DNA of 64,000 bases from Deltaproteobacteria bacterium RBG_16_64_85 (GTDB taxonomy: Bacteria > Desulfobacterota > Deferrimicrobia > Deferrimicrobiales > Deferrimicrobiaceae), in contig MGQW01000080.1 in the NCBI GenBank assembly GCA_001798885.1, forward strand, positions 1-64,000, given 5' to 3'. The position numbers and the translations under genes were made by a program. The notes under the pieces were generated by a model. The model made no database searches, had not been told where the DNA came from, and saw only the letters and a program-made list of their open reading frames with translations. This document shows, in pieces, positions 974 to 16,725 of the stretch. Position 1 is the first letter of the stretch, and each line of letters starts with the position of its first letter.

Positions 974-2287
974 ATGGGACTTTCGAGGTCAAGGAATTGC
1001 CCCGGGAAACGGACAACTTTATGTTGTGCCGCCGCCCTGCTTCTTCTGGCTGCCCTGTTTCCATCAGAATTGCGCGCCGCGGACATCACCCTTTCCTCGA
1101 AGACCTATCTACTCTACTACAAAAGGGATCTCCCCGGCAGCTCCACCCAGCAATTCGCCCCCTTGTACGAATACCTGTCCGCCGACGCGGGTCAGCTGGG
1201 CGGGACCCCCTTCTCCTTCCACTTTTACGGCTGGGGTCGTCAGGACCTCCAGGATGCGACCGGAAGCGGCAAGACGAGCGGTGAGCTCGGAAGTGCCTAC
1301 CTGCAATATCTCCACCCGACGGGAAACGGGGAGATGCGCTTGGGGCGATTCTTCCTGACGGAAGGGGCGGCCTTCGAGATCATGGACGGTATCTTCCTCA
1401 AGGCCAGGACCCCCGTGGGCCTCGGCTTATCCGTCTTCGGCGGCGTGCCTGCGGAGGCCACCATCACTTCCACGAAGACGGGTGACTCGATCTACGGGGG
1501 GAGGGTCTTCTTCGCCAAGCCCGGATTCACCGAGCTCGGCGTGAGCTACCTTATTGAAAAGGGGAAGTTCCAGGGAGAGGACCGGAAAGAGATCGGCGGT
1601 GACCTTTGGCTTCGGCCTTTCGGCCCCGTTGAGCTCATCGGCCGCGCCACGTACAACGACGCCACCCGCGCCCTGGCATACCAGCGCTACCTGCTGCGGC
1701 TTGCGCCGGCCTCCGGAGTCGACCTGTCGGTGGGGTACGAGGCCTACAAGTACAAGGACTACTTCCAGACGACACTCAACCCCGCCTTTCAGTTTCCGAC
1801 GATCGACAACACCGACCGGGTCCGGACCGTGTTCGCCGTCCTTGACTGGGAAGTGGTCAAAAGCGTTACGGCGACCCTGGGTGCGAAGAGCATCAAGCAC
1901 GACACGGCGGCCGTCGGCGACGCCACCCGAGGGGAGCTGGGGGTGAAGTACGTCTACAACAACAACCGGGACGCGGCCGGAGTCTCGGCGGCCACGGTCA
2001 GCGCGGACAAAGACCGGAACGCCTACCAGGAGTATCGGGGCTATGCCACCTACTCTCCCGCAAAATGGCGGTTTGCGCTGGATGCTCTTACGCAGCAGTA
2101 CAAGCAGGCGATCAGCGGGGTGAAGAACGCCTATCACGTCGTGGGGTCGGCGGGGTACCGGCTGTTTGAAGTTCTCCGGTTGTCGGGGGACCTGACGTAC
2201 ACGAAGAGTCCGCAGTTCGACAAGGATTACGCCGGGCTCGTCCGGGCTTCGCTGTTTTTCGGGTCCGGCACGGGAGGGAAGAAATGA
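974..2287 (+). CDS. Outer-membrane beta-barrel (porin-like) protein of a cytochrome cluster
   Basis: This 437-residue protein begins with a basic segment and a hydrophobic signal peptide (about residues 15-35, ending LRAAD). The rest alternates short polar and aromatic/hydrophobic stretches with many Tyr, Gly and Phe residues and no membrane helix, as expected for a beta-barrel. It has no heme motif. The stop overlaps the start of the next lipoprotein cytochrome gene by 4 bp (ATGA), so the two are translationally coupled. In Geobacter-type porin-cytochrome conduits a barrel of similar size surrounds multiheme cytochromes and passes electrons across the outer membrane; that role is inferred here from gene order. 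I do not recognise a named family. A pseudo-Shine-Dalgarno GGGGGAAAG precedes the ATG. Confidence 0.75.
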   Translation: MGLSRSRNCPGKRTTLCCAAALLLLAALFPSELRAADITLSSKTYLLYYKRDLPGSSTQQFAPLYEYLSADAGQLGGTPFSFHFYGWGRQDLQDATGSGKTSGELGSAYLQYLHPTGNGEMRLGRFFLTEGAAFEIMDGIFLKARTPVGLGLSVFGGVPAEATITSTKTGDSIYGGRVFFAKPGFTELGVSYLIEKGKFQGEDRKEIGGDLWLRPFGPVELIGRATYNDATRALAYQRYLLRLAPASGVDLSVGYEAYKYKDYFQTTLNPAFQFPTIDNTDRVRTVFAVLDWEVVKSVTATLGAKSIKHDTAAVGDATRGELGVKYVYNNNRDAAGVSAATVSADKDRNAYQEYRGYATYSPAKWRFALDALTQQYKQAISGVKNAYHVVGSAGYRLFEVLRLSGDLTYTKSPQFDKDYAGLVRASLFFGSGTGGKK

Positions 2288-2757
2288 TGCGACGCGCATG
2301 CCAAGGGATCGTTTTCGGAGCGGTTTTTACGGCCCTGATCGCGGGGTGCTCCGCCATCTCTCAGTCGCCTTCCGTGCCTCCGAGACACCCTGAGGAGCTT
2401 GCGGGCTGGACGCAGGTGGACTGCCGCGAGTGCCATTCCGATATCTCCACAGGGGCGCTCAAACCGTATGCCTCCTTCCGGCATTCGACGGCTTTTGTCC
2501 GGCACCACGGCCTTTATGCTCGCCAGGGTCAGAACCTGTGCCAGTCGTGCCACGGCCCGTCGTTCTGCCAGGGCTGCCATGCCCGGAAAGAGGAGTTGAA
2601 GCCCGACACGCGGATGGGTGACCGCCCCGACTTGGCGCTGCCGCATCGGGGCGATTACATCGTGCAGCACCAGCTGGACGGGAGGATGGACCCAGGGTCC
2701 TGCTTCCGTTGCCACGGCAATAAGAACGACGCCAGGTGCAGGGCATGCCACAGGTAG
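2284..2757 (+). CDS. Pentaheme c-type cytochrome lipoprotein
   Basis: The 157-residue product has an N-terminal signal with lipobox LIAGC (Cys about residue 22), so it is probably a lipid-anchored protein. Five canonical heme motifs occur in the remaining 130 residues: CRECH, CQSCH, CQGCH, CFRCH and CRACH, the last at the extreme C-terminus. Several extra His residues (HSTAFVRHH, LPHRGDY, QHQ) could be distal heme ligands. The gene is coupled to the barrel gene upstream by an ATGA overlap and lies 53 bp before a larger multiheme lipoprotein. The likely role is the periplasmic or outer-leaflet partner of a trans-outer-membrane electron conduit. The family is not one I can name. Confidence 0.85.
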   Translation: MMRRACQGIVFGAVFTALIAGCSAISQSPSVPPRHPEELAGWTQVDCRECHSDISTGALKPYASFRHSTAFVRHHGLYARQGQNLCQSCHGPSFCQGCHARKEELKPDTRMGDRPDLALPHRGDYIVQHQLDGRMDPGSCFRCHGNKNDARCRACHR

Positions 2758-2810
2758 GACTGCGGGCGGGGGAGCAAAGCATTGCGGAGTTCGAAGGAGG
2801 GGGAAACACG

Positions 2811-4244
2811 ATGACGGGAACGAGGAATCTGCGGCCGACAAGGCCTTGGGTTTTTCTGCTGCTTTTCGGGGTGCTTCTTTCCGCCGGGTGCTCGACGGGC
2901 ACCGGCGATTCCGGACTGAACCTCGTTACTCCGTCCGGTAGCCATCCGGCGGGATTCCTCTCGACGCATACCGCCTTCGCCATTTCGGATACAACGCAAT
3001 GCGAATCCTGCCACGGAAGCGACCTGGCGGGAGGGATCGCAAAGACTTCCTGCTTCACGTCCGCGTGCCATCACGGAACGAAATCGAGCTGGGCGCTGCC
3101 CGCGGAGCACGGCGCCTCGGCCAAGAGAGCGCCCGGCAGCTCGGGGTTCGCCTCCTGCCGAATCTGCCATGGGAACGATTTTGCCGGAGGGGGTTCCGGC
3201 GTCTCCTGCCTGAATAACGCCGCCTGCCACGGGAGCGGGGTCAACTCCCCTCATTCCCGCAGGCTCTGGCGCCTCACCGGGACGGGCAATACGCACACGA
3301 ACACGGACCCGGCGAACGCCGTCGTATGCATCAACTGCCATGCCAGCGGGGCCAACACGAACCCGCCGCATCCGCCGCCCACGCCGGCGCCTGCGGGGAC
3401 CCCCCCGGGATGCTTCAACAGCACGTTGTGCCATGGGGTAGGGCCCGGCGGGGCGAACCATACCGTCCCCTTCCTTGCGCCCACGCATACGCAGTCGACG
3501 CAGCCCACGTTCACGAACGACTGCTCGAGCTGCCACGCGGTCACGGGAACTTCACCGATTTCCGCGGCGCCGCTTTGCACCGTGTGCCACACCGCGGGGT
3601 CGCCGTTCACGCTCACGAACTGCACCTCCTGCCACGCTTTCCCGCCGAACGGGGCGGCGGGAGCGGCGTATCCGAACATCGCGGGGGCCCATCCCGTGCA
3701 CATCGCCTTGAACGGCGCGGGGACCCCGATCTCCTGTGACACTTGCCACAACGGGCTGGGGACCAATACCTTGAACCATTACAACCGTGCCAACGCACGG
3801 CCAGGGTTGAACGCACTGCGGGTTCCTCCCGGGGATGCGGCGTTTCCCGCCACGTACAACGCGAAAACCGGGGCGTCGTCGTTCAGCGCAACCGCGCTCA
3901 CCTGCTCGAACGTGAGCTGCCATGGCGGGCAGGCCAACCTCAACTGGCAGACGGGAACGCTCGATGTGAACACCCGATGCACGAGTTGCCACGCTTCGGG
4001 TACGGCGCAGTTCAATAGCTACAACTCGGGACGGCACACGAACGTCGGGAAGCATGTCAGCAACGGGTGCACGTCCTGCCACGACACCGCAAGGCTCGCG
4101 CTCGGCCATTTCACGAACCTCGCAACCTCGGCCTTCGAGCAGGCCCCGAGGGCCACGCTCCTGACGGGGCTCCAGTACAACGGCGCAACGTGCAATCCGG
4201 GCGCCGGCGGTATTTCAGGATGCCACGACCAGAAAACCTGGTGA
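2811..4244 (+). CDS. Large multiheme lipoprotein cytochrome with CxxCH and CxxxxCH motifs
   Basis: The start is the ATG at 2811, preceded by AAGGAGGGGG; an upstream in-frame ATG at 2736 lies inside the previous gene. The 477-residue product has a signal peptide with lipobox LLSAGC. It contains nine canonical CxxCH motifs (CESCH, CRICH, CINCH, CSSCH, CTVCH, CTSCH three times, CDTCH). It also has spaced variants: CFTSACH and CSNVSCH (CX4CH), CLNNAACH and CFNSTLCH (CX5CH), and a final CX9CH. This mixture, in a Ser/Thr/Asn/Gly-rich sequence with little secondary structure, is typical of the Geobacter CxxxxCH...CxxCH cytochrome family. It is probably the surface-exposed terminal element of the barrel-cytochrome cluster. 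A strong terminator follows the stop. Confidence 0.88.
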   Translation: MTGTRNLRPTRPWVFLLLFGVLLSAGCSTGTGDSGLNLVTPSGSHPAGFLSTHTAFAISDTTQCESCHGSDLAGGIAKTSCFTSACHHGTKSSWALPAEHGASAKRAPGSSGFASCRICHGNDFAGGGSGVSCLNNAACHGSGVNSPHSRRLWRLTGTGNTHTNTDPANAVVCINCHASGANTNPPHPPPTPAPAGTPPGCFNSTLCHGVGPGGANHTVPFLAPTHTQSTQPTFTNDCSSCHAVTGTSPISAAPLCTVCHTAGSPFTLTNCTSCHAFPPNGAAGAAYPNIAGAHPVHIALNGAGTPISCDTCHNGLGTNTLNHYNRANARPGLNALRVPPGDAAFPATYNAKTGASSFSATALTCSNVSCHGGQANLNWQTGTLDVNTRCTSCHASGTAQFNSYNSGRHTNVGKHVSNGCTSCHDTARLALGHFTNLATSAFEQAPRATLLTGLQYNGATCNPGAGGISGCHDQKTW

Positions 4245-4250
4245 CCGGCA

Positions 4251-4279
4251 AGGGGGCCGCGTAAGGCCCCCTGCTTTTC
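4251..4279 (+). terminator. Intrinsic terminator after the cytochrome cluster
   Basis: AGGGGGCC at 4251-4258 pairs perfectly with GGCCCCCT at 4265-4272 around a 6-nt loop and is followed by GCTTTT. It begins six bases after the stop codon of the multiheme lipoprotein. Confidence 0.85.
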
Positions 4280-4367
4280 CGCGGGATCGGGTTATTGTGC
4301 ACGGATGACCGATCTGCGGGGAGGGAAACGGGGGATTGGGACGACCCCCCGTTCTTGAGAGAGAGTG

Positions 4368-4399
4368 AAAGCCCCGGAGGGAAGAAAACCGGGGCTTTT
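4368..4399. terminator. Second, bidirectional terminator
   Basis: AAAGCCCCGG at 4368-4377 pairs with CCGGGGCTTT at 4389-4398 around an 11-nt A-rich loop. A T-run follows on the plus strand and an equivalent one is produced on the minus strand. It backs up the terminator at 4251 and insulates the HD-GYP gene. Confidence 0.8.
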
Positions 4400-4475
4400 G
4401 CATTTTCGGGGCGCGGCGCACGCGTTGCCGGTTGGCCTATGGTTCGCTCGGAACTGAATCCTATTCACTTCCGTG

Positions 4476-4503
4476 TTGACTTCGTTTTCTTTTTCGATAG
4501 AGT
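4476..4503 (+). promoter_or_regulatory. Candidate sigma70 promoter for the HD-GYP gene
   Basis: TTGACT at 4476-4481 and TAGAGT at 4498-4503 are separated by 16 bp. The predicted start site is about 25 bp before the GTG start codon at 4537. It lies directly after the double terminator. Confidence 0.5.
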
Positions 4504-4536
4504 CGGATTTATAGGCATGAAGTGGTGGGGGATTCT

Positions 4537-5469
4537 GTGGCGATCCTCAGGCTGAGATTCCCGGTCCATTCGCTGGACCACAGACAACTGCTTCCGGCGG
4601 GCACGCTGCTTACGCGGGAGACCCTCGACGAGCTGTCCCGTCCCGTCAAGGGGAAATCCTTTCCGGTGATGCCTTTGCTGGAGTACGGCACCGTTCGCCG
4701 GGACCTCCAGGGATTTCTCCGCCAGGGGGCGTTCCGGCGTATTTTCGAAGATCCGCGGAAAAATGGCGTCATCCAGTCGCTCATGGAAAAGGTGGCCCTG
4801 GCCCAACCCGTTCTGGAAACCCTCCGTTACTTTCAGCGAGCCGATCCGTACACCTACCGCCATGTCCTGAGGGTTTTCGCGTTGTCGATCCTCCTGGCCC
4901 GGGATCTGGAGTCGAATTTCGAGGATCAGATCCTGGAGGCAACGGCCGGCCCATTGCACGATTTCGGCAAGATCTGCGTCCCGCTCCGGATCCTGAAAAA
5001 GACCACTCCGCTGCAACGGTCCGAAAGGGCCATCCTGGAACACCACACCGTTGCCGGATTCGCGTTGATCAGTTATTACCTGAAGGACTTCAAATGCATC
5101 GCCGCCAAAGTGGCCGCGGAGCACCACGAAAGGAAGGACGGGTCCGGCTATCCCCTGGGGATCCTCCTCCGGGACCGTCTGGTGGAGATTGTCGTGACGT
5201 GCGACGTCTACGACGCGCTCATTTCCCCAAGGCCGTATCGCAGGGTCTCTTACGACAACCGGACCGCCCTCGAGGAAATCACCGAGATGGCCAACCAGGG
5301 AAAGATCGACTGGAACATCGTGAAGGCGCTCGTGGCGCATAACCGAAAGGGCAAGCCTCCGGCAAACGAATGCGCGGTTTCCATCGAGAAAAGGGGGACC
5401 CCCCCGGAAGGCAATCTCTACGGCGTCCTGATCGACGACGCTCCCCCGCCGGATCGCTCTGCGGAATAA
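4537..5469 (+). CDS. HD-GYP domain protein, predicted c-di-GMP phosphodiesterase
   Basis: I chose the GTG at 4537, which has GGGGGAT before it; an in-frame GTG at 4522 is possible. The product is about 310 residues. The N-terminal third is a divergent segment without a receiver or membrane motif. The C-terminal two thirds are an HD-GYP domain with HDFGK, LEHHTVAGF, the HHERKDGSGYP signature, and the PYRR segment typical of the family. Such enzymes hydrolyse cyclic di-GMP to linear pGpG or GMP and control surface attachment and motility. There is no linked sensor domain, so the input signal is unknown. The gene is monocistronic, between terminators on the left and a convergent aminotransferase 8 bp beyond its stop. 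Confidence 0.85.
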   Translation: MAILRLRFPVHSLDHRQLLPAGTLLTRETLDELSRPVKGKSFPVMPLLEYGTVRRDLQGFLRQGAFRRIFEDPRKNGVIQSLMEKVALAQPVLETLRYFQRADPYTYRHVLRVFALSILLARDLESNFEDQILEATAGPLHDFGKICVPLRILKKTTPLQRSERAILEHHTVAGFALISYYLKDFKCIAAKVAAEHHERKDGSGYPLGILLRDRLVEIVVTCDVYDALISPRPYRRVSYDNRTALEEITEMANQGKIDWNIVKALVAHNRKGKPPANECAVSIEKRGTPPEGNLYGVLIDDAPPPDRSAE

Positions 5470-5477
5470 GCGGCGCG

Positions 5478-6653
5478 CTACCTGCCGAGGATTGCCCTCA
5501 GCCCCTCGATCAGTCGGCCTGTTCCTTCGACGGCGGTTTCCATCTTCAGGCTCCCGTAGGCGATCCGCAGGCAGCACCCCTCCGTGACCCCGAACGTCCC
5601 GCCGGGGATGACGGCCACCTTGTGGTTCCGGACCAGCCGCTCGGTAAGCGGGAGATCGCCCATCGAGGTGCGCACCTTTGCCAGGAAATAGAATGCCCCC
5701 TGCGACGGGGGGATCGTGAGGAGGTCGGGAACGCTCGAGAGACGCTCAAGGACCTGTTGCCGGACCTTCGCGATGGACTCCAGGTGCTGGTGGCAGTAGC
5801 CGCGCCCGATCCGCAGCGCCTCCAGGGCGACCGCCTGGGAAACCGCCGGGGCGCAGATGATCACCGTGTCCTGGATCTTGATCAGGTCGTCGAAGAGATG
5901 CGCCGGCGCAACCAGGAACCCGACCCGCCAGCTCGCCATCCCGTATGCCTTGGAACAGCTGTAGAGCGAGATCGTATGGTCCTCGCCTCCCAGGGAGCCG
6001 GGGGAGAAGTGCGCGGCGCCGTCGTAGGTGAAGTACTCATAGGCCTCGTCGCTGATGTGGTAGATCCCACGCCTGGCGCATAGACGATTGATCTCTGAAA
6101 GCGTTTCCCTCGAATAGACAACGCCGGTGGGGTTGTTCGGGGACACCGTGACGATCGCCCGCGTCCTGGGCGTCAAGGCCGCCTCGATCGCGCCGACGCG
6201 CGGATGGTAGTTCCCGTCCGTCGGAACGCACACCGCCCGGCAGCTTGCCAGCGCGATCGCCATTTCATGGTTGAAGTAGTAGGGCGTCATCAGGATCACC
6301 TCGTCGCCGGGGTCGCAGATCGCCAGGACGGCGTTGAAGAACGCCTGGTTTGCGCCGGCGGTGACGATGATCCTCCGCTCGAAGGGGGCGTAGATCCCGT
6401 TCTCCGTGCGAAGTTTCCCCTCGAACGCCTTCCGGAGTTCGGGAAGCCCGGCGTCGGGCTTGTACGGGTGGCTTCCGGGAGTCGAGGAAAAACGATCGAG
6501 GACCTGCATGGCTTGTGGCGGGGGCCCGTAGTACGCCACTCCCTGGCCGAGCGAGATGGCCCCCGGGGTCTCCGCGATCCAGCCCGCCACCGTCGGGATG
6601 ATGGGAAGCTGGACGCCGCTGGCTCGCCGCGATGAGGTCGTGGACCTGCCCAT
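5478..6653 (-). CDS. Class I/II pyridoxal-phosphate aminotransferase
   Basis: The 391-residue protein has the fold-type I aminotransferase hallmarks: SPNNPTG (residues 171-177), SDEAYEYF (Asp202 and Tyr205 contacting the cofactor), SCSKAYGMASWRVGF with the Schiff-base Lys235, and a C-terminal LRIAYGS containing the substrate-carboxylate Arg. The N-terminus has the ISLGQGVAYYGPP substrate loop typical of the aspartate/aromatic/alanine group. The substrate cannot be fixed from sequence. It is the last gene of a leftward trio with two metallophosphoesterases, 22 bp downstream of the nearer one. It is convergent with the HD-GYP gene. Confidence 0.85.
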   Translation of the reverse strand: MGRSTTSSRRASGVQLPIIPTVAGWIAETPGAISLGQGVAYYGPPPQAMQVLDRFSSTPGSHPYKPDAGLPELRKAFEGKLRTENGIYAPFERRIIVTAGANQAFFNAVLAICDPGDEVILMTPYYFNHEMAIALASCRAVCVPTDGNYHPRVGAIEAALTPRTRAIVTVSPNNPTGVVYSRETLSEINRLCARRGIYHISDEAYEYFTYDGAAHFSPGSLGGEDHTISLYSCSKAYGMASWRVGFLVAPAHLFDDLIKIQDTVIICAPAVSQAVALEALRIGRGYCHQHLESIAKVRQQVLERLSSVPDLLTIPPSQGAFYFLAKVRTSMGDLPLTERLVRNHKVAVIPGGTFGVTEGCCLRIAYGSLKMETAVEGTGRLIEGLRAILGR

Positions 6654-6675
6654 GTCGAATGCCGTACTCCCGTTC

Positions 6676-7506
6676 CTATACGTCGATGACCTGCCGCTCG
6701 AACTTCATCGTCTCCAGGTTCCCGATAACGACGGTGAGGCCGTTGGCCGACTGGCCCGGCTGGATGCAGATCGTGCGGCCGACGGTCGCCTTCCAGACGC
6801 CGCTCTCCTCGGGGGATTCGTGGATGTGCCCGTGAAGCGAGAGAAGCGGTTGGCGATGTTCAAGGAACTTGAGCGTGGCCGCGGATCCCACCGCAGCCCC
6901 TCCCCGGCAGACGTCGAGCCCCAGGCTCGACGGCGGCCCGTGGAGGACATAAACGGCATGCTCCGGATCCCTCGGCTCGGGAAGGCGGTAAAGCTCCTCC
7001 TCGATCGTGGGGAGAGTCCTGGCGTACGCCGGCCAATCGGGAATCTCCTTCCAGCCACCGGGGAGGGAGAGGATCCCGCCGCCGAACTGCGGGGGGAAGG
7101 TGAAGTCGCGCGCATCCATCCGGGCGCGGTCCTTCAGGCGGAACGGAAAATCCGTCACGAGGTTCATCCCGATGAAATCGTGCGCCCCGAGGGAGATCCG
7201 TCGACCGGCAAGGTTCTCCACCAGGAGGTATTTCCCGCAGGCGGCGTCGAACAGGGGGTCGTGCGCGCGCAGGTCGTCATTCGCCAATAACCCCAGGTGA
7301 CGGATCCCTGCCGCCTGGTATTGCGCGAAGAGCGGATCGAGAAATTCCCGGACGAACCGGGCCTGTTCCTCGTGCATCCGCCCGTGGGAAAACATGTCCC
7401 CGCCGTTGATGACGAGGAACGCGCCCAGTTTCTTCGCCAGCGCGAGCGTCCGCTCGTACTTCCGCCGGTTCCCGTGCAGGTCGGTCACGAAGAGAAACGT
7501 CGCCAT
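6676..7506 (-). CDS. Calcineurin-like metallophosphoesterase
   Basis: The frame is open far upstream, but the protein begins at the ATG at 7506 (MATFLFVTDLHG), giving 276 residues. Metal-ligand motifs are TDLHGN, INGGDMF, LLANDD in place of the usual GNHE, VLHGPP and LHGHIHE. This pattern fits the cytosolic metallophosphoesterase group that acts on small phosphoesters or nucleotides; the substrate is unknown. The gap to the upstream membrane metallophosphoesterase is only 8 bp, so the two are almost certainly cotranscribed. No strong ribosome-binding site is visible, which suggests translational coupling. Confidence 0.8.
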   Translation of the reverse strand: MATFLFVTDLHGNRRKYERTLALAKKLGAFLVINGGDMFSHGRMHEEQARFVREFLDPLFAQYQAAGIRHLGLLANDDLRAHDPLFDAACGKYLLVENLAGRRISLGAHDFIGMNLVTDFPFRLKDRARMDARDFTFPPQFGGGILSLPGGWKEIPDWPAYARTLPTIEEELYRLPEPRDPEHAVYVLHGPPSSLGLDVCRGGAAVGSAATLKFLEHRQPLLSLHGHIHESPEESGVWKATVGRTICIQPGQSANGLTVVIGNLETMKFERQVIDV

Positions 7507-7514
7507 GGCAAAGA

Positions 7515-8663
7515 TTATAACCGGGCCGGGGAGCGATCGATGTCGATGATCGTTATCTCGGGGGGGGAGAGGAAACGCATCGGCGGGCCCCAGGTCCCCG
7601 TCCCCCGGCTGGTGTAGAGGGCTGCGCCGTTCTTCGACTCGTACAGGCCGGAGAGGAGCGGGTACCAGATCCGGACCAGGAGCCGGAAGGGGAAGATCTG
7701 CCCGTTGTGCGTGTGGCCGGAGAGCTGAAGGTCGGCCGCCTTCCGCGCGGCGGGGGATAAAAAGGGTCGGTGCTTGAGGAGGAGCGTGAAGAGGGGGGAA
7801 GGCCCGTTTCCCAGGAGTTCTTCTTCCGAACGCCCGGGGGCCGGACCGAAAGACCGGCCTGCCGGGTCGTCGACCCCGACGAGGCGCAGGACGTTTCCGA
7901 CCGTAACGGCCTCTCCCCTCAGGACCGTGAAGCCGGAGCGATGCATGAAATCGAGGGACGGGCCGATCCCCGCGTAGAATTCGTGATTGCCCGTTACCGC
8001 GTATTTGCCGAGAGGCGGGCGGATCTCCCGGAAGATCTCGGAGAGCCCGTCGAGATGGTTGATCCGGCCGTCGACGAGGTCCCCCGTGGCAACCAAGACA
8101 TCCGGGGTGGCGTTCCGCACTTGTTCCGCGATGGCGGCAGCCTTCCGGTGCCGGACCATCAGCCCCAGGTGGACGTCGGAGATCTGCGCGACCCGGATCC
8201 GCTTCGTTGCCGCCGGCAGCTTGTCCGTGAGGATCCGGATGCGCTCCACCCGGAGGTTCGAGGCTTCGAGGAAAGAGGCGATTCCCAGAACGACAGATAG
8301 TCCCGCAAGGGAAAGGAACGCGGGCCTGCCGTAGGCGATGAACGGGCGCGGCCCGTCGCCGAAAACGGAGGTCAGAAGGCGCGCGAGGAGGTTTGCGGCA
8401 TCCACGGCAAGGTTCATCCAGGTGAAGAAGAAGAGCAGCCCCATCCACGTGTACGCGATCCAGGAGGCGGCCCGTGAGGCCCCCTCCATTCCGCGCTCTC
8501 CGAGAACGTACACGATCAAGGGGCCGCAAAGAAGCGCGGCGAGCAGGGGAATCGCGGCGAGGGTCGTCTTCCAACCCAGCCCCAGGGCGGCCTGGGCCTT
8601 GGACAGCGCGTAGGCGTGGGTCCCGCCATAGATCAGGAAGAAGGTAAGAAGAAAAAGGGACAA
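7515..8663 (-). CDS. Membrane-anchored metallophosphoesterase (YkuE/YaeI-like)
   Basis: The 382-residue protein has about four hydrophobic helices in its first 135 residues (around 2-12, 33-54, 68-90 and 113-133), followed by a cytosolic catalytic domain. Metal-binding motifs are SDVHLG (Asp163, His165), GDLVDG (Asp195), GNHEFY (Asn226, His227), the His of LLLKHRPF and GHTHNGQ. The arrangement matches the YkuE/YaeI branch, some members of which hydrolyse UDP-2,3-diacylglucosamine in lipid A synthesis; that function is a family possibility and not established here. It starts a leftward operon that continues with a second metallophosphoesterase and an aminotransferase. Confidence 0.83.
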   Translation of the reverse strand: MSLFLLTFFLIYGGTHAYALSKAQAALGLGWKTTLAAIPLLAALLCGPLIVYVLGERGMEGASRAASWIAYTWMGLLFFFTWMNLAVDAANLLARLLTSVFGDGPRPFIAYGRPAFLSLAGLSVVLGIASFLEASNLRVERIRILTDKLPAATKRIRVAQISDVHLGLMVRHRKAAAIAEQVRNATPDVLVATGDLVDGRINHLDGLSEIFREIRPPLGKYAVTGNHEFYAGIGPSLDFMHRSGFTVLRGEAVTVGNVLRLVGVDDPAGRSFGPAPGRSEEELLGNGPSPLFTLLLKHRPFLSPAARKAADLQLSGHTHNGQIFPFRLLVRIWYPLLSGLYESKNGAALYTSRGTGTWGPPMRFLSPPEITIIDIDRSPARL

Positions 8664-8731
8664 GGGAAAGCCTCCGGCGGCGATCGTATTATGAGATAAT
8701 TACGTCACTATTTTGCCACCGGAGGGACGGG

Positions 8732-9001
8732 GTGCCGACATATGAATACAAGTGCGGGAAGTGCGGGGAGTTCGAAACGACCCAGAAGATAAGCGCCCCG
8801 CCCCTCTCGAAATGCCCGACCTGCGGGGGGAAGGTGAAGCGCCAGATCGCGGGAACCGGCGGCTTCGTGCTCAAGGGAAGCAACTGGCCCTCCAAGATGG
8901 CCTCCTCGGGCGAATCCGCGAAGAAGAAAGCGGATCGTTTCATGAAGCAGACGGTGGGGGAAGTCGCCGAGGACATCGCGAAGCACTCCGATTCCCATTA
9001 G
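8732..9001 (+). CDS. FmdB-type zinc-ribbon regulatory protein
   Basis: This 89-residue protein starts with GTG preceded by GGAGGGACGGG. The first 45 residues form the FmdB/CxxC_CxxC zinc ribbon: MPTYEYKC-GKC and CPTCGG supply four Cys. The tail is basic with several Ser and Lys residues. The family is widespread and mostly of unknown function; founding members were proposed as regulators. The stop overlaps the stop of the convergent threonine aldolase gene by four bases. The start is divergent from the metallophosphoesterase operon. Confidence 0.85.
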   Translation: MPTYEYKCGKCGEFETTQKISAPPLSKCPTCGGKVKRQIAGTGGFVLKGSNWPSKMASSGESAKKKADRFMKQTVGEVAEDIAKHSDSH

Positions 9002-10047
9002 GAACCCCGCCCGACGATAACCTCCCGAAGCGCCCGCACGGCGCGGGAAACGTCCTTTTTCCCGATCCCCAGGTGGGTGACCGCCCGGAAGAGCGGGAAC
9101 CCCCGGTCCTCCAGGAGCACTTTGCCGGCACCCAGTTGTTCCCGGAAAGCGGGAAGCCCCATCGAGGGCATTTTCCATCGGAACAGGACAATGTTGGTTT
9201 CCACCGGTGCGTTGATGACCTCCACCCCGGGGATCTCTTTGAGCCCGGCCGCCAGCGTCCGCGCGTTATCGTGGTCCTCCGCGAGCCGCTCGATGTGGTG
9301 CCTGAGGGCGTAGAGCCCCCCCGCGGCCACGATTCCCGCCTGTCGCATCCCGCCTCCGATCCGCAAGGCGATGCTCCGAACATCCTTCAGGAAGTCCCGG
9401 GAACCCACCAGGACCGAGCCGACCGGAGCCCCCAGGCCCTTGGAGAGGCAGAACATCAAGGAGTTGGAAACCTTCCCGTAGGACGCCGGGGACACGCCGG
9501 ACGCGATCGACGCATTGAAGATGCGCGAGCCGTCGAGGTGAAGGGGGATGGAAGCCTTTCCGCACACGGTGCGGATGCGCTTCAGGGCGGCCAGGGGGAA
9601 GACGGTTCCTCCCCCGGCGTTGTGGGTATTTTCGGCGGTCACCAGGCGCACGTTCGACTCGACGCGCCGTGGCGCCGCGGCGATGGCCTCCGCAACATCC
9701 TCCGCCGAGAAGATCCCCTCCGGGGCGTCGATCCCCAGGATGACAACGGAAGCGAGATGGGAGACGGCGGGGCTTTCGCGTCCCGCGATGTGGGATGCGG
9801 AAGAAGCAACGATCCCGTCGCCTGGGCGGGTCCAAGCCGCCACGGCGCACAGGTTCGCCATCGTGCCGGAGGGGAAGAACCTCCCCGCCTCCTTTCCGAA
9901 GAGGGCGGCGGAATGTTCCTCGAGAGCGCGGACGGACGGGTCCTCCCCCCGCCGGGAATCGCCGACCTTCGCCCTCGCCATCGCCCTTCTCATCCCGGGC
10001 GTGGGGAGTGTGACGGTATCGGAACGCAGGTCGACGGCTTCGGCCAT
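8998..10047 (-). CDS. ltaE: Low-specificity L-threonine aldolase
   Basis: The 349-residue enzyme shows the PLP fold-type I aldolase pattern: DLRSDTVTLP at the start, the RGEDPSV loop, FPSGTMAN, His86 in ASSASH that would stack on the cofactor, HLDGSRIFNA with Asp172 and Arg175, and the Schiff-base Lys203 in FCLSKGLGAPVGS. It splits L-threonine or L-allo-threonine to glycine and acetaldehyde. The start is 7 bp after the stop of the class II glutamine amidotransferase gene, so the two form an operon. The gene is convergent with and slightly overlaps the FmdB gene. Confidence 0.9.
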   Translation of the reverse strand: MAEAVDLRSDTVTLPTPGMRRAMARAKVGDSRRGEDPSVRALEEHSAALFGKEAGRFFPSGTMANLCAVAAWTRPGDGIVASSASHIAGRESPAVSHLASVVILGIDAPEGIFSAEDVAEAIAAAPRRVESNVRLVTAENTHNAGGGTVFPLAALKRIRTVCGKASIPLHLDGSRIFNASIASGVSPASYGKVSNSLMFCLSKGLGAPVGSVLVGSRDFLKDVRSIALRIGGGMRQAGIVAAGGLYALRHHIERLAEDHDNARTLAAGLKEIPGVEVINAPVETNIVLFRWKMPSMGLPAFREQLGAGKVLLEDRGFPLFRAVTHLGIGKKDVSRAVRALREVIVGRGS

Positions 10048-10054
10048 GGACGGG

Positions 10055-10786
10055 TCAGGCGGCCGCGAAGAGGACCGCTGAACGTGGGGCCCCGGGGCGC
10101 AGCTCCACCAGCTCCCCGTTGCAAAACGGCCGCCATCCGGGACCGTCGTCCAGCGGCTGGCTCGCCGCGACGGCCAGGCCGGGCCCGTCCTTCAGGAAGA
10201 GCGTGTAGTAGTCCTCGTTCCTGCGCCAGTGCCGCAGCGCGAAAAGCGCCTCCCCGGATGCGATCAGCAGGTTGGCGGCGGAATAATCCCCGACCTGCCC
10301 GGGGTCGCACAGGATCGCCATCAGCGCCTCTCCGAGATGTGAGAAGACCTTTTCCTCCCAGAGCACGGACAGCCGCTCCAGGAAGACGAGTGTGTCGCTG
10401 ACGTTGCGCCGCTGGGCCTCCTCCCCGATTTTCCCGTGGAAGGTACCGTTGTGGGCAAGCGCCGTACCGCGGACGAGGAAGGGGTGTGCGTTGGAGGCGC
10501 TGACCGTCGCGATGTTGGAGGCATACCGGACGTGTCCGATGAACCGGTCGGTCGTTACCCTTACCCCGGAGAGCGCCGGGTCGGCGTTGGCCGGCTTCCC
10601 GCTGCGCAGGAGCCGTATCCCCCCCCCAGCGCGATAGGCGATCCCCCACCCGTTCGGATGGTTCCCGCCCGCCCTCCGCTCCCATCCATCCACCAGGTTC
10701 CCGCGTCGTGAAAAGTCGGAGAGGCCGTCAAGGAAAGGGGCCAAGTCCAACGGCTCCGCGGATGCGAATCCGATCATCCTGCACAT
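10055..10786 (-). CDS. Class II glutamine amidotransferase (YafJ/EgtC-like)
   Basis: The start is set at the ATG at 10786 because the sequence then begins MCRMIGF, which places the catalytic Cys at position 2 as Ntn-type glutaminase domains require; GAGAGGT lies upstream. The 243-residue protein has the NGWGIAY, VRYAS and NAHPF motifs of stand-alone Gn-AT-II proteins. It has no synthase domain, so the acceptor of ammonia is unknown. Members of this group include EgtC (ergothioneine) and YafJ. It is followed after 7 bp by threonine aldolase. Any longer N-terminus would bury the nucleophile. Confidence 0.85.
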   Translation of the reverse strand: MCRMIGFASAEPLDLAPFLDGLSDFSRRGNLVDGWERRAGGNHPNGWGIAYRAGGGIRLLRSGKPANADPALSGVRVTTDRFIGHVRYASNIATVSASNAHPFLVRGTALAHNGTFHGKIGEEAQRRNVSDTLVFLERLSVLWEEKVFSHLGEALMAILCDPGQVGDYSAANLLIASGEALFALRHWRRNEDYYTLFLKDGPGLAVAASQPLDDGPGWRPFCNGELVELRPGAPRSAVLFAAA

Positions 10787-10815
10787 GGGAAGTACCTCTC
10801 TTGTAGAAGATGAGG

Positions 10816-10847
10816 GAACCGTATCCCCCGGTTCGGGGATGCGGTTC
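10816..10847. repeat. Interrupted inverted repeat between actE and the amidotransferase gene
   Basis: GAACCG(T)ATCCCC pairs with GGGGAT(G)CGGTTC around a 6-nt loop; the stem has one internal mismatch. Read on the minus strand it lies 29 bp before the amidotransferase start and has no following T-run. Read on the plus strand it is followed by a T-run. It may end act-operon transcription or act in the leader. Confidence 0.4.
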
Positions 10848-10899
10848 TCCGGTTGTTTTTCAGGCATTCAGCAAGAAGAAGATCACGCCGGGAAGCCGC

Positions 10900-11388
10900 T
10901 CACTTAAGTGTGCGTAGATAGACGACGACGTGCCACCGCTCGTCGGGGGTGAGATCCGCCCGGAAGGCCGGCATCCCGCCGGCACCGTTGGAAAGGATGG
11001 CGAAGAGCGCCCCGTCGGGCAGTGCGGACACAGGGGATCCGGCATGCAAGTCGGCGGGGGTGGGAACGTATTTTTTCCCTACGGGTCCGTCCCCTTTGCC
11101 GGAGACGCCGTGGCAGGGCACGCAGAAGATCCCGTAGAGATCTTTTCCTTTCGACAGATTCCCTTCCGATGGATCGACGGGATTCTTGAGTTTCACGGCC
11201 TCGGCCATCGAGAGATTGCGCTCCTTTCCCTTCGTGGGGACCGAGTCCTTCGGCGGCAGGCGGACCGGCTCCTCCTGGGGCTTGTAAGCCGGATTGTCCC
11301 ACATGTTCCGGTCGATCCGCTCGCAGGCGGTCAATGACCCCGCCGCGAGGACCAGGGCGGCAAGCAGCGCGGGAAGGCGGCCCCTCAC
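10900..11388 (-). CDS. actE: Alternative complex III subunit E-like monoheme cytochrome c lipoprotein
   Basis: The start is the GTG at 11388, overlapping the stop of the DUF3341 gene (GTGA) with GGAGGGGG upstream. The 162-residue product has a signal peptide with lipobox SLTAC and one heme motif, CVPCH, in a class I cytochrome c fold (KGKDLYGIFCVPCHG, then GMPAF carrying the axial Met). This is the mobile-type cytochrome that in alternative complex III receives electrons from the membrane complex. It is the last gene of the leftward act operon. Confidence 0.85.
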   Translation of the reverse strand: MRGRLPALLAALVLAAGSLTACERIDRNMWDNPAYKPQEEPVRLPPKDSVPTKGKERNLSMAEAVKLKNPVDPSEGNLSKGKDLYGIFCVPCHGVSGKGDGPVGKKYVPTPADLHAGSPVSALPDGALFAILSNGAGGMPAFRADLTPDERWHVVVYLRTLK

Positions 11389-11918
11389 AGCACCCCCTCC
11401 TCGATCCGGACGTCGGTTCCACCTGCCCCGGAAAGCGCGCCGGCGGCCCGCCGGGCCTGATCCCCGGGCGTGACATAGGCGCACACCGCGATCTTCCCCT
11501 CGTGGATCCGCGGGTCGAACACCTTCCTTTTCCAGAACCTGGCCAGCCCGATGGACAGGAAGCCGGCGACGAGCGTCGCAAGCAGAGCCGCCAGCATGGC
11601 CGTCTCGTAGGTGACGATGATCGTCGGCGGTACGGAGGCGATCGGCTTGCCGGCCGTGACCAGGGGATACACCAGGTAGGAATAGAGGGTCAGGCCCGCC
11701 CCGGCGGCCGCCCCCACGAACCAGAAGACGGCCACGGCCCATGGGAACCGGATCGGCCGGGGGTCCGAGACGACAGCGCCGTCCGGAAGCGCCACGGAGG
11801 AGATCGTCGTGACATCGGCGGCCGGAATCGGCAGGGCGCGCAGCGCCTGAGCGGCCGCTCCCGCCGACTCCACGGCGTCGAAAAGCCCGATGATGACCGT
11901 CCTGCTTCCGCCGCTCAT
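11385..11918 (-). CDS. actD: Alternative complex III subunit D-like, DUF3341 membrane protein
   Basis: The 177-residue protein starts at the ATG at 11918, which overlaps the NrfD-like gene's stop by four bases and has a GGAGGAAGG site. An N-terminal soluble segment (VIIGLFDAVESAGAAAQAL) is followed by two membrane helices at about 59-84 and 103-130 and a soluble tail (KIAVCAYV). This topology is that of DUF3341/ActD, a structural membrane subunit of alternative complex III. Both neighbours overlap it, so the order actC-actD-actE is tightly coupled. Confidence 0.85.
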   Translation of the reverse strand: MSGGSRTVIIGLFDAVESAGAAAQALRALPIPAADVTTISSVALPDGAVVSDPRPIRFPWAVAVFWFVGAAAGAGLTLYSYLVYPLVTAGKPIASVPPTIIVTYETAMLAALLATLVAGFLSIGLARFWKRKVFDPRIHEGKIAVCAYVTPGDQARRAAGALSGAGGTDVRIEEGVL

Positions 11919-13300
11919 TTCCCTTCCCCTTCCTCCTCCTGGGCTACCGACGCGACGGTGGCCGCCCCGATGGATCGGTCCGTCGTGCGGAAGAGATGCT
12001 CCTTGATGTCGCTGATCGCCATGACGGGCAGGATCTTGGAGAACAGAACGTAGAGCAGGGAGAACATCGCGACGGAGCCCACGATGTAGGACATCTCCAC
12101 CCAGGTGGGGAAATAGTTGAGCCATATGGACGGGTCGTTCCGCCGCGCGAGGGAGGGCACCACGATCAGGGCCCGCTCCGCGAACATCCCGATGTTCACG
12201 ACGAGGGAAACGGCGAATAAAGCGGGGACCGACCGCCGCACCCTGGAAAGGCACAGGGCCGGCAGCGGAAGGAGGAAGTTGCACGTAAGCATCAAGAGGA
12301 AAAGCGGCAGGAAGTGCCCCCCGTAGGAGCTTACAAGCGCCCAGTCCTCGGGGAGGCGGCTGTACCAGGTGGTCAGGAACTCCGCGAAATAGAAGTAGCC
12401 CCAGATGAGGGTCATCGTCAGGAGGAGTTTTCCGAGGTTGTCGAAGTGCTGCACCGTGAGGAAGTTCTCCAGCCGGAAGACGCGCCGCAGGAACGCCATG
12501 ACGGTGATGACGCCGGCGATCCCGGAGTAGATCGCCCCCGCCACGAAATACGGCGCGAAGATGGTGCTGTGCCAGCCCGGCACCATCGCCATGGCGAAGT
12601 CCCAGCTCACGATCGAGTGGACCGAGACGGCGACGGGGATGATGAGGACCGCGAACAGTGTGGAGGCGACGCGGTAGCGGCGCCATTCGGAGTGCGTCCC
12701 CCGGAATCCGGCGGCGAGGATCGTGTATAGCTTCTTCCTCCACCCCGTGGAGTGGTCCCGCGCGATCGCGAGATCCGGGATCATCCCGAAGTAGAGGAAC
12801 AGGATGCTCCCGGTGAGGTAGGTGCTGATGGCCACCATGTCCCACAGGAGGGGGGAACGGAAGTTCGGCCACAGCATCCGCTCGTTGGGGTAGGGGATCA
12901 TGTAGTAGAAGCGCCAGTTCCGCCCCAGGTGCATGAGGGGGAAGAGGCCGCCCACCATCAGCGCGAAGACCGTCATCGCCTCCGCGCCGCGCAGGACGGG
13001 CGCGCGCCAGCCGGCCTGGGTGATCCGCAGGATCGCGGAGATGAGCGTCCCCGAGTGGGAAACCCCGATCCAGAAGACGAAGAGGATGATCATGGTGCCC
13101 CACATGACGGGGCGGGAAAGGCCGGTGACGCCCAGGCCCGTCGCCATCATGTAGAGGAAGGCGCCTACCGCTCCGGCCGTGACCGCGAGGAGGATCCCCG
13201 CCGCCAGGTACCAGGACTTCGTCGTGACGAGGTTCGACCGGGAGAGCTCCTCGTAGAGCTTGCCTTCTTCGTGCCGCGCCAGGTGATGCCGTTCGCTCAT
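11915..13300 (-). CDS. actC: Alternative complex III subunit C-like NrfD-family quinol-binding membrane protein
   Basis: The open frame extends far upstream, but the ATG at 13300 overlaps the ferredoxin subunit's stop (ATGA) and has a GAGGGGG site, giving 461 residues. About ten hydrophobic helices alternate with short loops, as in NrfD/PsrC-type proteins that oxidise or reduce quinol at the membrane. Motifs such as HSGTLISAILR and WEMSY-like WVEMSYIVG match the ActC branch. It would hand electrons from menaquinol to the iron-sulfur and heme subunits. Only one NrfD-type gene is present; typical alternative complex III has a second (ActF). Confidence 0.85.
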   Translation of the reverse strand: MSERHHLARHEEGKLYEELSRSNLVTTKSWYLAAGILLAVTAGAVGAFLYMMATGLGVTGLSRPVMWGTMIILFVFWIGVSHSGTLISAILRITQAGWRAPVLRGAEAMTVFALMVGGLFPLMHLGRNWRFYYMIPYPNERMLWPNFRSPLLWDMVAISTYLTGSILFLYFGMIPDLAIARDHSTGWRKKLYTILAAGFRGTHSEWRRYRVASTLFAVLIIPVAVSVHSIVSWDFAMAMVPGWHSTIFAPYFVAGAIYSGIAGVITVMAFLRRVFRLENFLTVQHFDNLGKLLLTMTLIWGYFYFAEFLTTWYSRLPEDWALVSSYGGHFLPLFLLMLTCNFLLPLPALCLSRVRRSVPALFAVSLVVNIGMFAERALIVVPSLARRNDPSIWLNYFPTWVEMSYIVGSVAMFSLLYVLFSKILPVMAISDIKEHLFRTTDRSIGAATVASVAQEEEGEGK

Positions 13301-13998
13301 CGCCCGGGCCCCCTCTGCTTCTTCAGGTACACCGTGCTCGGCTCGGTCCCCTTGTGCTCCATCAGCTTGAACAGCCGCGGATCCTTGACCATCCGCGAGA
13401 TGGCGCTGACCGGGTCGAGAAGATCGCCGAACTGGATCGCCCCCGGGGGGCACGTTTGCGCGCAGGCGGGCATCACTTCGCCGTCCCGGATCTTCCTTCC
13501 TTCCTTAAGGGCCGTCTCCTTCCCCCTGCGGATCCGCTGGATGCAATAGGTGCATTTCTCCATCACGCCCCGGGACCGGACCGACAGGTCCGGGTTGAGC
13601 TGCTCGTCCAACGGTTTTTCCCACTTGTGGTCCCACCAGTTGAACACCCGGACCGAGTAGGGGCAGTTGTTGGCGCAGTACCTCGTCCCGATGCAGCGGT
13701 TGTACACCATGGCGTTCAGTTGGTCGTCCTCGTCGTGGTAGGTGGCGTACACCGGGCAGACGATCTCGCAGGGCGCCTTCTCGCAGTGCATGCACGGGGT
13801 GGGAACGAAGATCGCGCGCGTTTCCGCTCCTTCCTTCTTCCAGTATCGGGACACCCGCAGCCATTGCATCAAGCGGCCCTTCCCGGCCTCTTCCTCCCCG
13901 GCGGTCGGGATGTTGTTCTCCGCGACGCAGGCGACCACGCACGCCCCGCAGCCGGTGCAGCGGTCCATGTCGATCACCATCGCCCACTTGTGCTTCAT
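13297..13998 (-). CDS. Four-cluster ferredoxin-like electron-transfer subunit (ActB C-terminal part/QrcC-like)
   Basis: This 233-residue protein holds Cys motifs for four [4Fe-4S] or [3Fe-4S] clusters: CTGCGACVVAC, CMHCEKAPCEIVCP, CIGTRYCANNCPY and CTYC paired with CAQTCPPGAI. Such DmsB/NrfC-type subunits pass electrons between a catalytic or structural subunit and the NrfD membrane protein. In many alternative complexes III this domain is fused to the molybdopterin-like domain as ActB; here it is a separate gene 22 bp downstream of that domain's gene, as in Qrc. It overlaps the next gene by four bases. Confidence 0.88.
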   Translation of the reverse strand: MKHKWAMVIDMDRCTGCGACVVACVAENNIPTAGEEEAGKGRLMQWLRVSRYWKKEGAETRAIFVPTPCMHCEKAPCEIVCPVYATYHDEDDQLNAMVYNRCIGTRYCANNCPYSVRVFNWWDHKWEKPLDEQLNPDLSVRSRGVMEKCTYCIQRIRRGKETALKEGRKIRDGEVMPACAQTCPPGAIQFGDLLDPVSAISRMVKDPRLFKLMEHKGTEPSTVYLKKQRGPGR

Positions 13999-14020
13999 CG
14001 TGGCGGTCCTTCCGCGCGCG

Positions 14021-16216
14021 TCACAGGATGTTCTCGTACTTCCATTGCCCTTCGACGTTGACGGTCCGCACCAGGCTTCCCTTGAGCTTCGCCTTCGCGA
14101 GGGAAACCCGGGTGGACTGTCGCGCCGGGCCCTTCGATCCCTTTTCCTCCTTCAACGGCAGGAGCGAGAAGGGATTCCCCCCCCGGTTCGCGGCGTCCTT
14201 GCCGTACCGGGTGTGCCCCTGCCCCAGCGGCAGGGCGACCACGTCAGGCGCCATCGCCGGGTGGAGGACGACGAAAGCCTCCATCGATCCGAAGGGGGAG
14301 GTAACGACGACGCCGTCGCCGTCCGCAAGCCCCAGCTTTCCGGCGGTCTTTGGGTTCACCTCGACCCAGTTGCGCCACACGGCGGTGGTGACGGGATCGG
14401 GCAGCTCCTGCAACCAGGAGAGGTTCGCCCCGCGGCCGTCGGAGTGGGCGATGGATGGGTAGACGTGGAGAAGGAGCGGGTAGCGGGCCGGGTCTCCTTC
14501 GAATTCCGCTTCCGTGATTTTGGGCAGGGAAAGTTTTTGCGTCTTCGGCGCGGGGCGCGGCGCAGGCGCCTTCACGGGGAAGAGCCCGCCATCCTTGCGG
14601 GCGTCTTCAAGGTTCACCCCCATTCCGGCGTAGGACTTCTCCACGCAATCCCGGAAGCCGGCCCACGGCAGGGCGGCCGCGACGGGACCGCCCAGCTCCT
14701 TCGCCGCGGCGATCAGGATGTCGGGCATCGAACGTGTGTCGCGGAATGGATCGACGACCGGCTGCGCCATGGTGATTGCGTTGCCCGAGTGCCCTGCAGG
14801 CGCGATGTCGTCGCCCCACTCCTCCAGGTACGTCGGGACGGGGAGCACGAGGTCGGACAGGGACGTGGTCTCGTCCAGGAAGGAGGCGAACGACACGACC
14901 TGCGGAACCGACAGGAGCGCCTCCCCGAATTGGAGCTGCGCGGGAAGGGTGAATGCGGGGTTCGCCGCCCCGGACAACAGCGCCATCCCGAAGGCCCCCC
15001 TGCGCATCTTCTCTACCGCGTCCCGAACGTGTGCGAACCCGCTCTCGGGAGAGGGCAGCAACAGCGCCGCGTCGGATCCATACCGAGAAAACGCCGCCAG
15101 CCGGTTCGGGAAAGAGATCCCCCCCGGCCTGCCCACGTTGCCCGCCAGCGCGTTCAGGAGCGCGGCGCACGCGAGGTTGAACGTCCCGTTCGTGCACCCG
15201 GCCGCGCCGTCGCCCGCGATCGCAAGCCCCGGCGGATTTTTTGCGAACTCGCGCGCGACGGCCTCGATGTCGGATGGGGGCAGGCCGGTCGTCTTCCCCA
15301 CGGCTTCCGGCGTCATCCGCGAAAGCCCGGCGGTCCACAGGGAAGAGGCCGCGGCGGCGGAAGGAACAAGCTTCTCCCTCACCATCACGTGCGCGATCCC
15401 AAGCGCGGCCGCCCCCTCGGATCCCGGCGCGATCGGAAGGAAGACGTCCGCGTTCGCCGCGGTCATCGAGAGCCGGGGGCCGAAATGCACGAACTTTCCC
15501 CTGACGGTCGGGCGCGACTGGCGCATCTGCCCGTAGGCGCGGCCGAAATGGACCGGCGAAATACCCGTCTCGAGGAAGTCGCCGCTGAAGGAGAGGAGGT
15601 AGTGGGCGTTGGCGATGTCGACCTCGGGGAGATCGCGGACGCCGAACACCGCCTCGTTCGCCGCGAGGAGCGCGTCCTGCCCGAACGGGTTCCAGGCGAC
15701 GCGATTCGGGGATCCGAACGCGCGCAGGAACCGGGCGGCCACGAGGTTCTGATGGCCGCGCATGGGCTCGGTGAGCATCAGGAGCGACGCCGGCGCCCCG
15801 GCCCGAAGTTTCTTCAATCCGGTCAAAAGGATCGAGAGCGCCTCTTCCCAGGAGATCTCCGCGAACTTGCCCGATCCCCGCGGACCGGAAAGCGCAAGCG
15901 GCCGCCCGATCCGCTCGGGATGGTAGAGCGCCTGGAGGCCGGCCTGTCCCCGCGCGCACAGTTTCCCGCGGTTGACCGGGTGGAGCGGGTTCCCCTCGAT
16001 CTTCTTCGCGCGCCCCTCGGAAACCCGGACCACGATGCCGCACCCCGCCGGGCACTGCCGGCAAACGGAGGCGTACCAGAGCGATTCTCCCAGGGTGTAG
16101 TTCTCCGGCGGGATCACGAAGGGGATGATCTTCTTCGGGATCTTGTCGCACCCTCCGAACAGGGCCGCGAATGCCGTCGCCCCGCCGAGTTTCAGGAAGT
16201 CTCTCCGGTCGAGCAT
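14021..16216 (-). CDS. Molybdopterin-oxidoreductase-like subunit of an ACIII/Qrc-type complex
   Basis: The 731-residue protein begins with a twin-arginine signal (RRDFLKLGG) followed by LFGGC, so it may be a Tat-exported lipoprotein. A [4Fe-4S] site follows: CRQCPAGC plus LCARGQ about 30 residues later. The rest resembles the molybdopterin oxidoreductase fold, ending in a C-terminal dinucleotide-binding-like domain (KLGLADGDGVVVTSPFGS). ActB and QrcB proteins have this fold but carry no molybdenum; whether cofactor binds here cannot be decided by eye. It lies between the pentaheme and the ferredoxin subunit genes in the same operon. Confidence 0.85.
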   Translation of the reverse strand: MLDRRDFLKLGGATAFAALFGGCDKIPKKIIPFVIPPENYTLGESLWYASVCRQCPAGCGIVVRVSEGRAKKIEGNPLHPVNRGKLCARGQAGLQALYHPERIGRPLALSGPRGSGKFAEISWEEALSILLTGLKKLRAGAPASLLMLTEPMRGHQNLVAARFLRAFGSPNRVAWNPFGQDALLAANEAVFGVRDLPEVDIANAHYLLSFSGDFLETGISPVHFGRAYGQMRQSRPTVRGKFVHFGPRLSMTAANADVFLPIAPGSEGAAALGIAHVMVREKLVPSAAAASSLWTAGLSRMTPEAVGKTTGLPPSDIEAVAREFAKNPPGLAIAGDGAAGCTNGTFNLACAALLNALAGNVGRPGGISFPNRLAAFSRYGSDAALLLPSPESGFAHVRDAVEKMRRGAFGMALLSGAANPAFTLPAQLQFGEALLSVPQVVSFASFLDETTSLSDLVLPVPTYLEEWGDDIAPAGHSGNAITMAQPVVDPFRDTRSMPDILIAAAKELGGPVAAALPWAGFRDCVEKSYAGMGVNLEDARKDGGLFPVKAPAPRPAPKTQKLSLPKITEAEFEGDPARYPLLLHVYPSIAHSDGRGANLSWLQELPDPVTTAVWRNWVEVNPKTAGKLGLADGDGVVVTSPFGSMEAFVVLHPAMAPDVVALPLGQGHTRYGKDAANRGGNPFSLLPLKEEKGSKGPARQSTRVSLAKAKLKGSLVRTVNVEGQWKYENIL

Positions 16217-16227
16217 CTACGCCCCTC

Positions 16228-16725
16228 TCAAAAGTGGCAGGACCAGCATTCGATGGAAACGCCCCGGCTCCGGTGGCACTTTAGGCAGAATCCCATCGTG
16301 AACTCCTGCCGCTGGACCGCGATGTCCGCCTTGTCGATCACAGGGTGGCACGTAAGACAAGGCACTCCGGCGTTGACCATGCGGAAATGGGGGAAATAGT
16401 TGAAATCGGGAAACTCCGTCACCCGGTTCCAGGGGATCGGCTTCTTCTCCTTCCAGTACTGTGCGATCTTCCGGACTTCCGGGCTGTCCACCGCGATCAC
16501 CCGGTGGCACATCATGCACTTCTCCACGGAAGGGATCCCGGCGGAGGCGGACTTGGTCGCCGAGGAGTGACAGAAGAGGCAATCGATCCCGTAGTCCGTT
16601 ACGTGGACCTTGTGGCTGTACCGGATGGGCTGTGAATCCTTCGCGCGCGCGGCGGCCGCGGCGCCGAACAGAAGGAGAGCGAAAAGAGAGGCGGCGATGG
16701 CGGCCTGCCGTCGCGGTCGGGGCAT
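16228..16725 (-). CDS. actA: Pentaheme cytochrome c subunit, ActA-like
   Basis: This first gene of the act operon encodes 165 residues with an N-terminal signal or anchor (about residues 7-27, ending ARAKD). It has five heme motifs: CLFCH, CMMCH, CLTCH, CLKCH and CWSCH. IRYSHKVHV and other His residues could supply distal ligands. ActA of alternative complex III is a pentaheme protein of comparable design that takes electrons toward the soluble cytochrome. Eleven bases separate it from the molybdopterin-like gene. Confidence 0.85.
   Translation of the reverse strand: MPRPRRQAAIAASLFALLLFGAAAAARAKDSQPIRYSHKVHVTDYGIDCLFCHSSATKSASAGIPSVEKCMMCHRVIAVDSPEVRKIAQYWKEKKPIPWNRVTEFPDFNYFPHFRMVNAGVPCLTCHPVIDKADIAVQRQEFTMGFCLKCHRSRGVSIECWSCHF

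Follow-up and report, generated by a model that had tools for sequence, protein, structure and literature searches.

The first 64 kb (64,000 nucleotides; hereafter, the window) of contig MGQW01000080.1 of Deltaproteobacteria bacterium RBG_16_64_85, whose genome comprises 2.2 Mb in 96 contigs, contain three consecutive genes that probably encode a porin–cytochrome conduit of the pentaheme type. Two criteria for such systems are seen here: a gene for an outer-membrane beta-barrel clustered with genes for multiheme c-type cytochromes, and, as read from sequence only, an outer-membrane lipoprotein with redox cofactors. The location of the three proteins and their electron transfer are predicted. 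The layout given in a preliminary description of the window, with a barrel gene coupled by ATGA to a five-heme lipoprotein and followed by a lipoprotein with nine or more hemes, is confirmed (Table 1).

Table 1. Genes and signals of the conduit locus and of its upstream neighbour, in window coordinates.
Feature	Position	Strand	Remarks
Outer-membrane beta-barrel	974..2287	+	Open reading frame, 437 amino acids; signal peptide at about residues 1–36; 22 predicted strands, no plug domain predicted
ATGA overlap of barrel stop and pentaheme start	2284..2287	+	Read in the sequence
Pentaheme c-type cytochrome lipoprotein	2284..2757	+	157 amino acids; lipobox-type Cys22 at 2347–2349; 5 CxxCH and invariant His
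Large multiheme c-type cytochrome lipoprotein	2811..4244	+	477 amino acids; 9 CxxCH, two CX4CH, and two CX5CH; lipobox-type Cys27 at 2889–2891
DsbC-like thiol-disulfide isomerase, truncated by the contig edge	1..502	-	Divergent from the barrel gene; weak Pfam matches

The conservation of gene order was assessed at 77 loci, with three loci of only 39 residues left out; they come from a pentaheme-profile scan of named genomes, which used one peptide pattern and is not a census, and which yielded 80 loci and 81 confirmed relatives. A homologous barrel open reading frame (ORF), or the end of one, lies directly upstream of the pentaheme gene at 74 loci; of the other three, two begin at a contig edge, and at the last one a barrel is present but the junction contains an unknown base. 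One Holophagaceae locus (L130) was considered as a barrel–pentaheme fusion and rejected, the base at the junction being unknown. The 4-base overlap of the two genes is found again at many related loci. Downstream multiheme ORFs (at least three CxxCH motifs; range 3 to 24) are seen at 68 of the 77 loci, and at 62 the downstream ORF is homologous to the third protein of the window (phmmer, E < 1e-5), while none of the OmcB-like controls is hit. Loci with the third gene occur in Geobacterales, Holophagaceae, and the window's lineage, and by this co-occurrence the barrel, pentaheme, and third gene travel as one module.

The barrel–pentaheme pair spans at least two phyla. Named relatives include Oryzomonas japonica, Geomonas silvestris, G. 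limicola, Pelotalea chapellei, Geothrix, and other Holophagaceae; further ones are two Nitrospirae and many deltaproteobacterial metagenome-assembled genomes. In the same family, a barrel of the window type (E ≤ 1e-100) is present in 18 of 24 genomes, the source genome included; one more (G006) gives only a weak OmbB-type match (1.4e-7), and five less complete ones give none. Among the 59 genomes searched, the barrel query matches in 24 (E ≤ 0.001) and the pentaheme query in 25. In the order of the genome G050, the pentaheme profile matches 86 of 97 genomes at E ≤ 0.001, a count that takes in OmaB-type proteins. In the barrel tree, the window's lineage forms one supported group (nine rows, 100/100) beside Geobacterales and Holophagaceae, and the OmbB-like barrels stand apart on a long branch of their own. 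One genome carries two barrel–pentaheme pairs (L066 on G004:C206, and G004:C242). Two of the 74 barrels have an OmpA-type C-terminal extension: at L137 (2333–2989) the barrel is fused to a peptidoglycan-binding domain of the OmpA type (Pfam OmpA, 6.6e-23), and the same fusion was judged by eye in the barrel ORF 4228–6348 of L138; no report of such a fusion was found in a literature search.

The strand number of the barrel, a check proposed in the preliminary description, comes to 22 in the AlphaFold model (mean predicted local distance difference test score, pLDDT, 84.7; input alignment of 46 sequences), with the strands lying between residues 37 and 430 (first E37–52, last E417–430). In VIA-align comparisons with solved structures, TonB-dependent receptors score best (PirA, Z 20.6, 4.0 Å over 338 residues), and the alignment starts only at the end of the receptor plug. 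MtrB is not among the VIA-align matches listed, which excludes nothing; Foldseek matches include ushers, AlgE, and substrate porins. Given the 22 modelled strands and the receptor alignment that begins where the plug ends, the barrel as modelled is of TonB-receptor size and lacks the plug domain; its lumen would be filled by a cytochrome. The mature protein has no cysteine. No Pfam or NCBIfam family matches it at E ≤ 1, so that profile libraries leave the proposed conduit route without a name; its sequence matches no solved structure at E ≤ 10, and its profile gives only three chance matches (E 0.62 or worse).

Both cytochromes far exceed shuffled proteins in CxxCH motifs: the mean over 5,000 shuffles per protein is 0.06 for the pentaheme and 0.09 for the third protein, with a maximum of two for either. 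In the pentaheme, the five motifs and five further His residues (35, 67, 75, 121, and 129), candidate axial ligands, are invariant among 36 aligned sequences, enough, as read from this alignment, for bis-His ligation of all five hemes. Against solved structures, its sequence gives only weak matches to MtrC, OmcA, NapB, and nitrite reductase (best 0.018). The third protein matches TIGR01904, a CxxxxCH/CxxCH domain, with 29.2 bits (cut-off 27), matches no solved structure by sequence at E ≤ 1, and is 35% identical across its full length (E 9e-60) to the third protein encoded in a Geobacteraceae cluster. It is the most variable of the three in heme number among relatives, which fits a substrate-facing part. 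Its open frame, 2736–4244, opens with GTG; ATG 2811 is the more likely start, since AGGAGG stands at 2795–2800 and a lipoprotein signal begins from this ATG.

The preliminary description gave the proteins as not matching the OmbB/OmaB/OmcB set and thus as possibly a divergent conduit. A divergent conduit is still the best reading; the mismatch holds for the third gene only. The same genome encodes, at L079 (G000:C72:24000-43999; 3349–10959, minus strand), a barrel of 419 amino acids, an octaheme cytochrome of 245, and a dodecaheme lipoprotein of 981. These heme counts are those of the OmbB–OmaB–OmcB make-up (PMC6344600), and the OmbB-, OmaB-, and OmcB-like labels used here rest on heme counts and gene order, not on named sequences. 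The window barrel finds the OmbB-like barrel of L079 with E 1.1e-11 in a whole-genome search and 2e-11 in BLASTP, and the two profiles align along the length of the barrel in hhalign (401 columns). Between the pentaheme and the first five hemes of the OmaB-like octaheme, the alignment covers 116 columns (hhalign; BLASTP 7e-10), and the five extra His residues of the pentaheme fall on His residues invariant in the octaheme alignment. An unrelated dodecaheme, taken as a control, aligns over only 21 columns, with an hhalign E-value of 1.6e-7; as such one-to-one E-values are inflated by the heme motifs, homology is judged here from aligned length and BLASTP. By these comparisons, the barrel and the pentaheme are remote homologues of an OmbB–OmaB-like pair, and the third protein is not OmcB-like (best BLASTP E against the OmcB-like dodecaheme 0.06, no match). 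The L079 set is followed by another 10-heme protein (842 amino acids), and one Geobacter-like genome carries an OmbB/OmaB-like pair twice, about 52 kb apart (G076:C2:23216-24850 and 75090-76724).

In the proposed mechanism, electrons would be delivered from the quinone pool to the periplasm, possibly by the products of an alternative-complex-III-like cluster in the window; periplasmic c-type cytochromes would pass them to the pentaheme, which, in or at the barrel lumen, would act as a five-heme wire and deliver them to the third protein, at the cell surface. This last protein would reduce an acceptor outside the cell, for example Fe(III) or Mn(IV) oxide, humics, or another cell as partner. The direction, the locations, and the contacts along this path are predicted. 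Other c7-type multiheme proteins are encoded in the genome, among them a run of long ones with c7-type repeats (G000:C72:58637-66320; frames of 442–705 amino acids). Judging from Mtr structures, in which each step spans about 1 nm, a chain of five hemes would be just long enough to cross a membrane. A more specific version, which we put forward tentatively, makes the pentaheme the minimal wire through the outer membrane: anchored by a lipid and related to the first five hemes of OmaB, it would sit in a plugless 22-strand barrel, which in some relatives would be bolted to the cell wall by the fused OmpA domain. Omc-type and pentaheme (Ext-like) conduits would then have one origin, contrary to the published view that the Ext and OmcB components are not homologous to one another (PMC6148476).

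Several observations weigh against the conduit as drawn here. Lipidation of a cytochrome supposed to sit in the barrel is unlike OmaB, which is described as periplasmic (PMC6344600), and in the published ExtABCD scheme the pentaheme ExtC is placed at the outer membrane as a lipoprotein, with ExtA as a separate periplasmic protein (PMC6148476). The strict lipobox pattern is passed by 31 of the 36 pentahemes and failed by 5, and it fails in 16 of 68 third proteins of related loci. The AlphaFold model of the pentaheme is poor (pLDDT 56.2), so that no fold claim is drawn and its seat in the barrel is unsupported by the model. Finally, no downstream multiheme ORF was called by script at 9 of the 77 loci, in some cases through contig ends or start choice.

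In an alternative that we consider rather unlikely, the pentaheme is a second outer-membrane lipoprotein, like ExtC, and the cytochrome that enters the barrel is a different periplasmic one, encoded away from the locus. By its lipobox the pentaheme is indeed a predicted lipoprotein; at L154, L155, and L156, which group together among the labelled rows of the barrel tree, a gene for an 11–12-heme protein of about 300 amino acids lies directly before the barrel gene, as in the ExtABCD layout (PMC6148476); and a family member (G002) has such a protein away from the pair. On the other hand, no ExtA-like dodecaheme is encoded beside the window barrel, the source genome yields only a 34-residue match (E 3.3e-4) to an ExtA-like query that was taken from G050 and labelled by layout, and the pentaheme matches OmaB, the very cytochrome partner of OmbB. 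An inward conduit, fed with electrons by a partner or by Fe(II) outside the cell as suggested for PioAB and MtoAB (PMC6344600), seems improbable: direction is not readable from sequence, but the relatives in Geobacterales and Holophagaceae are known mainly for reduction (PMC6344600, PMC11748539), and PioAB and MtoAB have no extracellular cytochrome (PMC6344600), whereas one is predicted here. Although substrate porins are among the Foldseek matches of the barrel, as expected of any barrel this large, an ordinary porin with cytochromes merely adjacent, for which the preliminary description would have expected unrelated clusters, which were looked for and not found, is very improbable and is rejected because of the 74 of 77 linkage, often with the 4-base overlap, and the homologous OmbB-like barrel itself precedes an octaheme cytochrome.

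The gene upstream of the barrel probably lies outside the conduit operon. It has a CxxCH motif near the N-terminus and Pfam matches below the cut-off (Thioredoxin_2, 3.7e-4; Thioredoxin_4, 4.1e-4; DsbC_N, 9.5e-4), and antisense ORFs suggest the same DsbC-like neighbour at L063 and L065. A promoter and terminator scan yielded about as much as shuffled sequence; a GC-rich hairpin directly 3' of position 4244, spotted by eye, is absent from the list of that scan. The alternative-complex-III-like cluster, read from ORFs alone, lies at about 10900–16725 of the window, with a five-CxxCH protein at 16228–16725 (minus strand).

The result would extend porin–cytochrome conduits to an uncultured lineage, and, with members in Geobacterales and Holophagaceae too, the family may be a common route of iron and humic respiration. 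If the proposed arrangement is true, a five-heme chain in a barrel would mark a lower bound for protein wires through an outer membrane; a five-heme conduit is also a simple target for reconstitution, and the OmbB–OmaB link gives a testable common ancestry to conduits so far treated as unrelated. Judging from the names of relatives and the genome type, the family of the source genome may be MBNT15/Deferrimicrobiota; the genome paper on that group lists multiheme cytochromes and act-like complexes, and its available text does not describe the barrel–cytochrome module (PMC9386147). No paper on the module was found among the available texts on MBNT15/Deferrimicrobiota with porins or extracellular electron transfer, and the terms Deferrimicrob and MBNT15 are absent from the main text of an ISME J 2025 survey (PMC12133095). 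Putative conduits of Geothrix from humic-lake work are described as without homology to known ones (PMC6344600), and expression of extEFG homologues has been reported for Holophaga (PMC11748539); either may belong to the conduit family of the window.

Several known systems can be compared with the locus. Like OmbB–OmaB–OmcB, it has the order barrel, cytochrome, large lipoprotein cytochrome; unlike OmaB, the pentaheme has five hemes rather than eight, plus a lipobox. The closest layouts by published description are ExtBCD (barrel ExtB, pentaheme lipoprotein ExtC, and dodecaheme lipoprotein ExtD; ExtA lies elsewhere in some genomes) and ExtEFG (barrel ExtE, pentaheme lipoprotein ExtF, and periplasmic dodecaheme ExtG), with the same order of barrel, pentaheme lipoprotein, and larger cytochrome (PMC6148476). 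The third protein differs from ExtD in having 9 CxxCH motifs rather than 12, and from ExtG in looking, from its N-terminus, like a lipoprotein; the three relatives with an 11–12-heme gene before the barrel resemble ExtABCD. In three Geobacter-like genomes (G075–G077), profiles find only OmbB/OmaB-type pairs and no Ext-like pairs, and the 12-heme gene stands alone; ext clusters are not established in these genomes, and the result, if anything, speaks against orthology with the Ext proteins. In G. metallireducens, Gmet0825–0828 encode a 12-heme protein, a barrel, and proteins with 5 and 6 hemes (PMC11389400). With MtrCAB, the locus shares the working principle of a barrel, a cytochrome wire, and a surface cytochrome; it differs in having five hemes instead of ten and a barrel with no NCBIfam match at the above threshold and 22 modelled strands. 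MtrB has 26. The proposed conduit is distantly related to the wires used by Geobacter in mineral respiration, and so broadens a class of machine already known instead of founding a new one.

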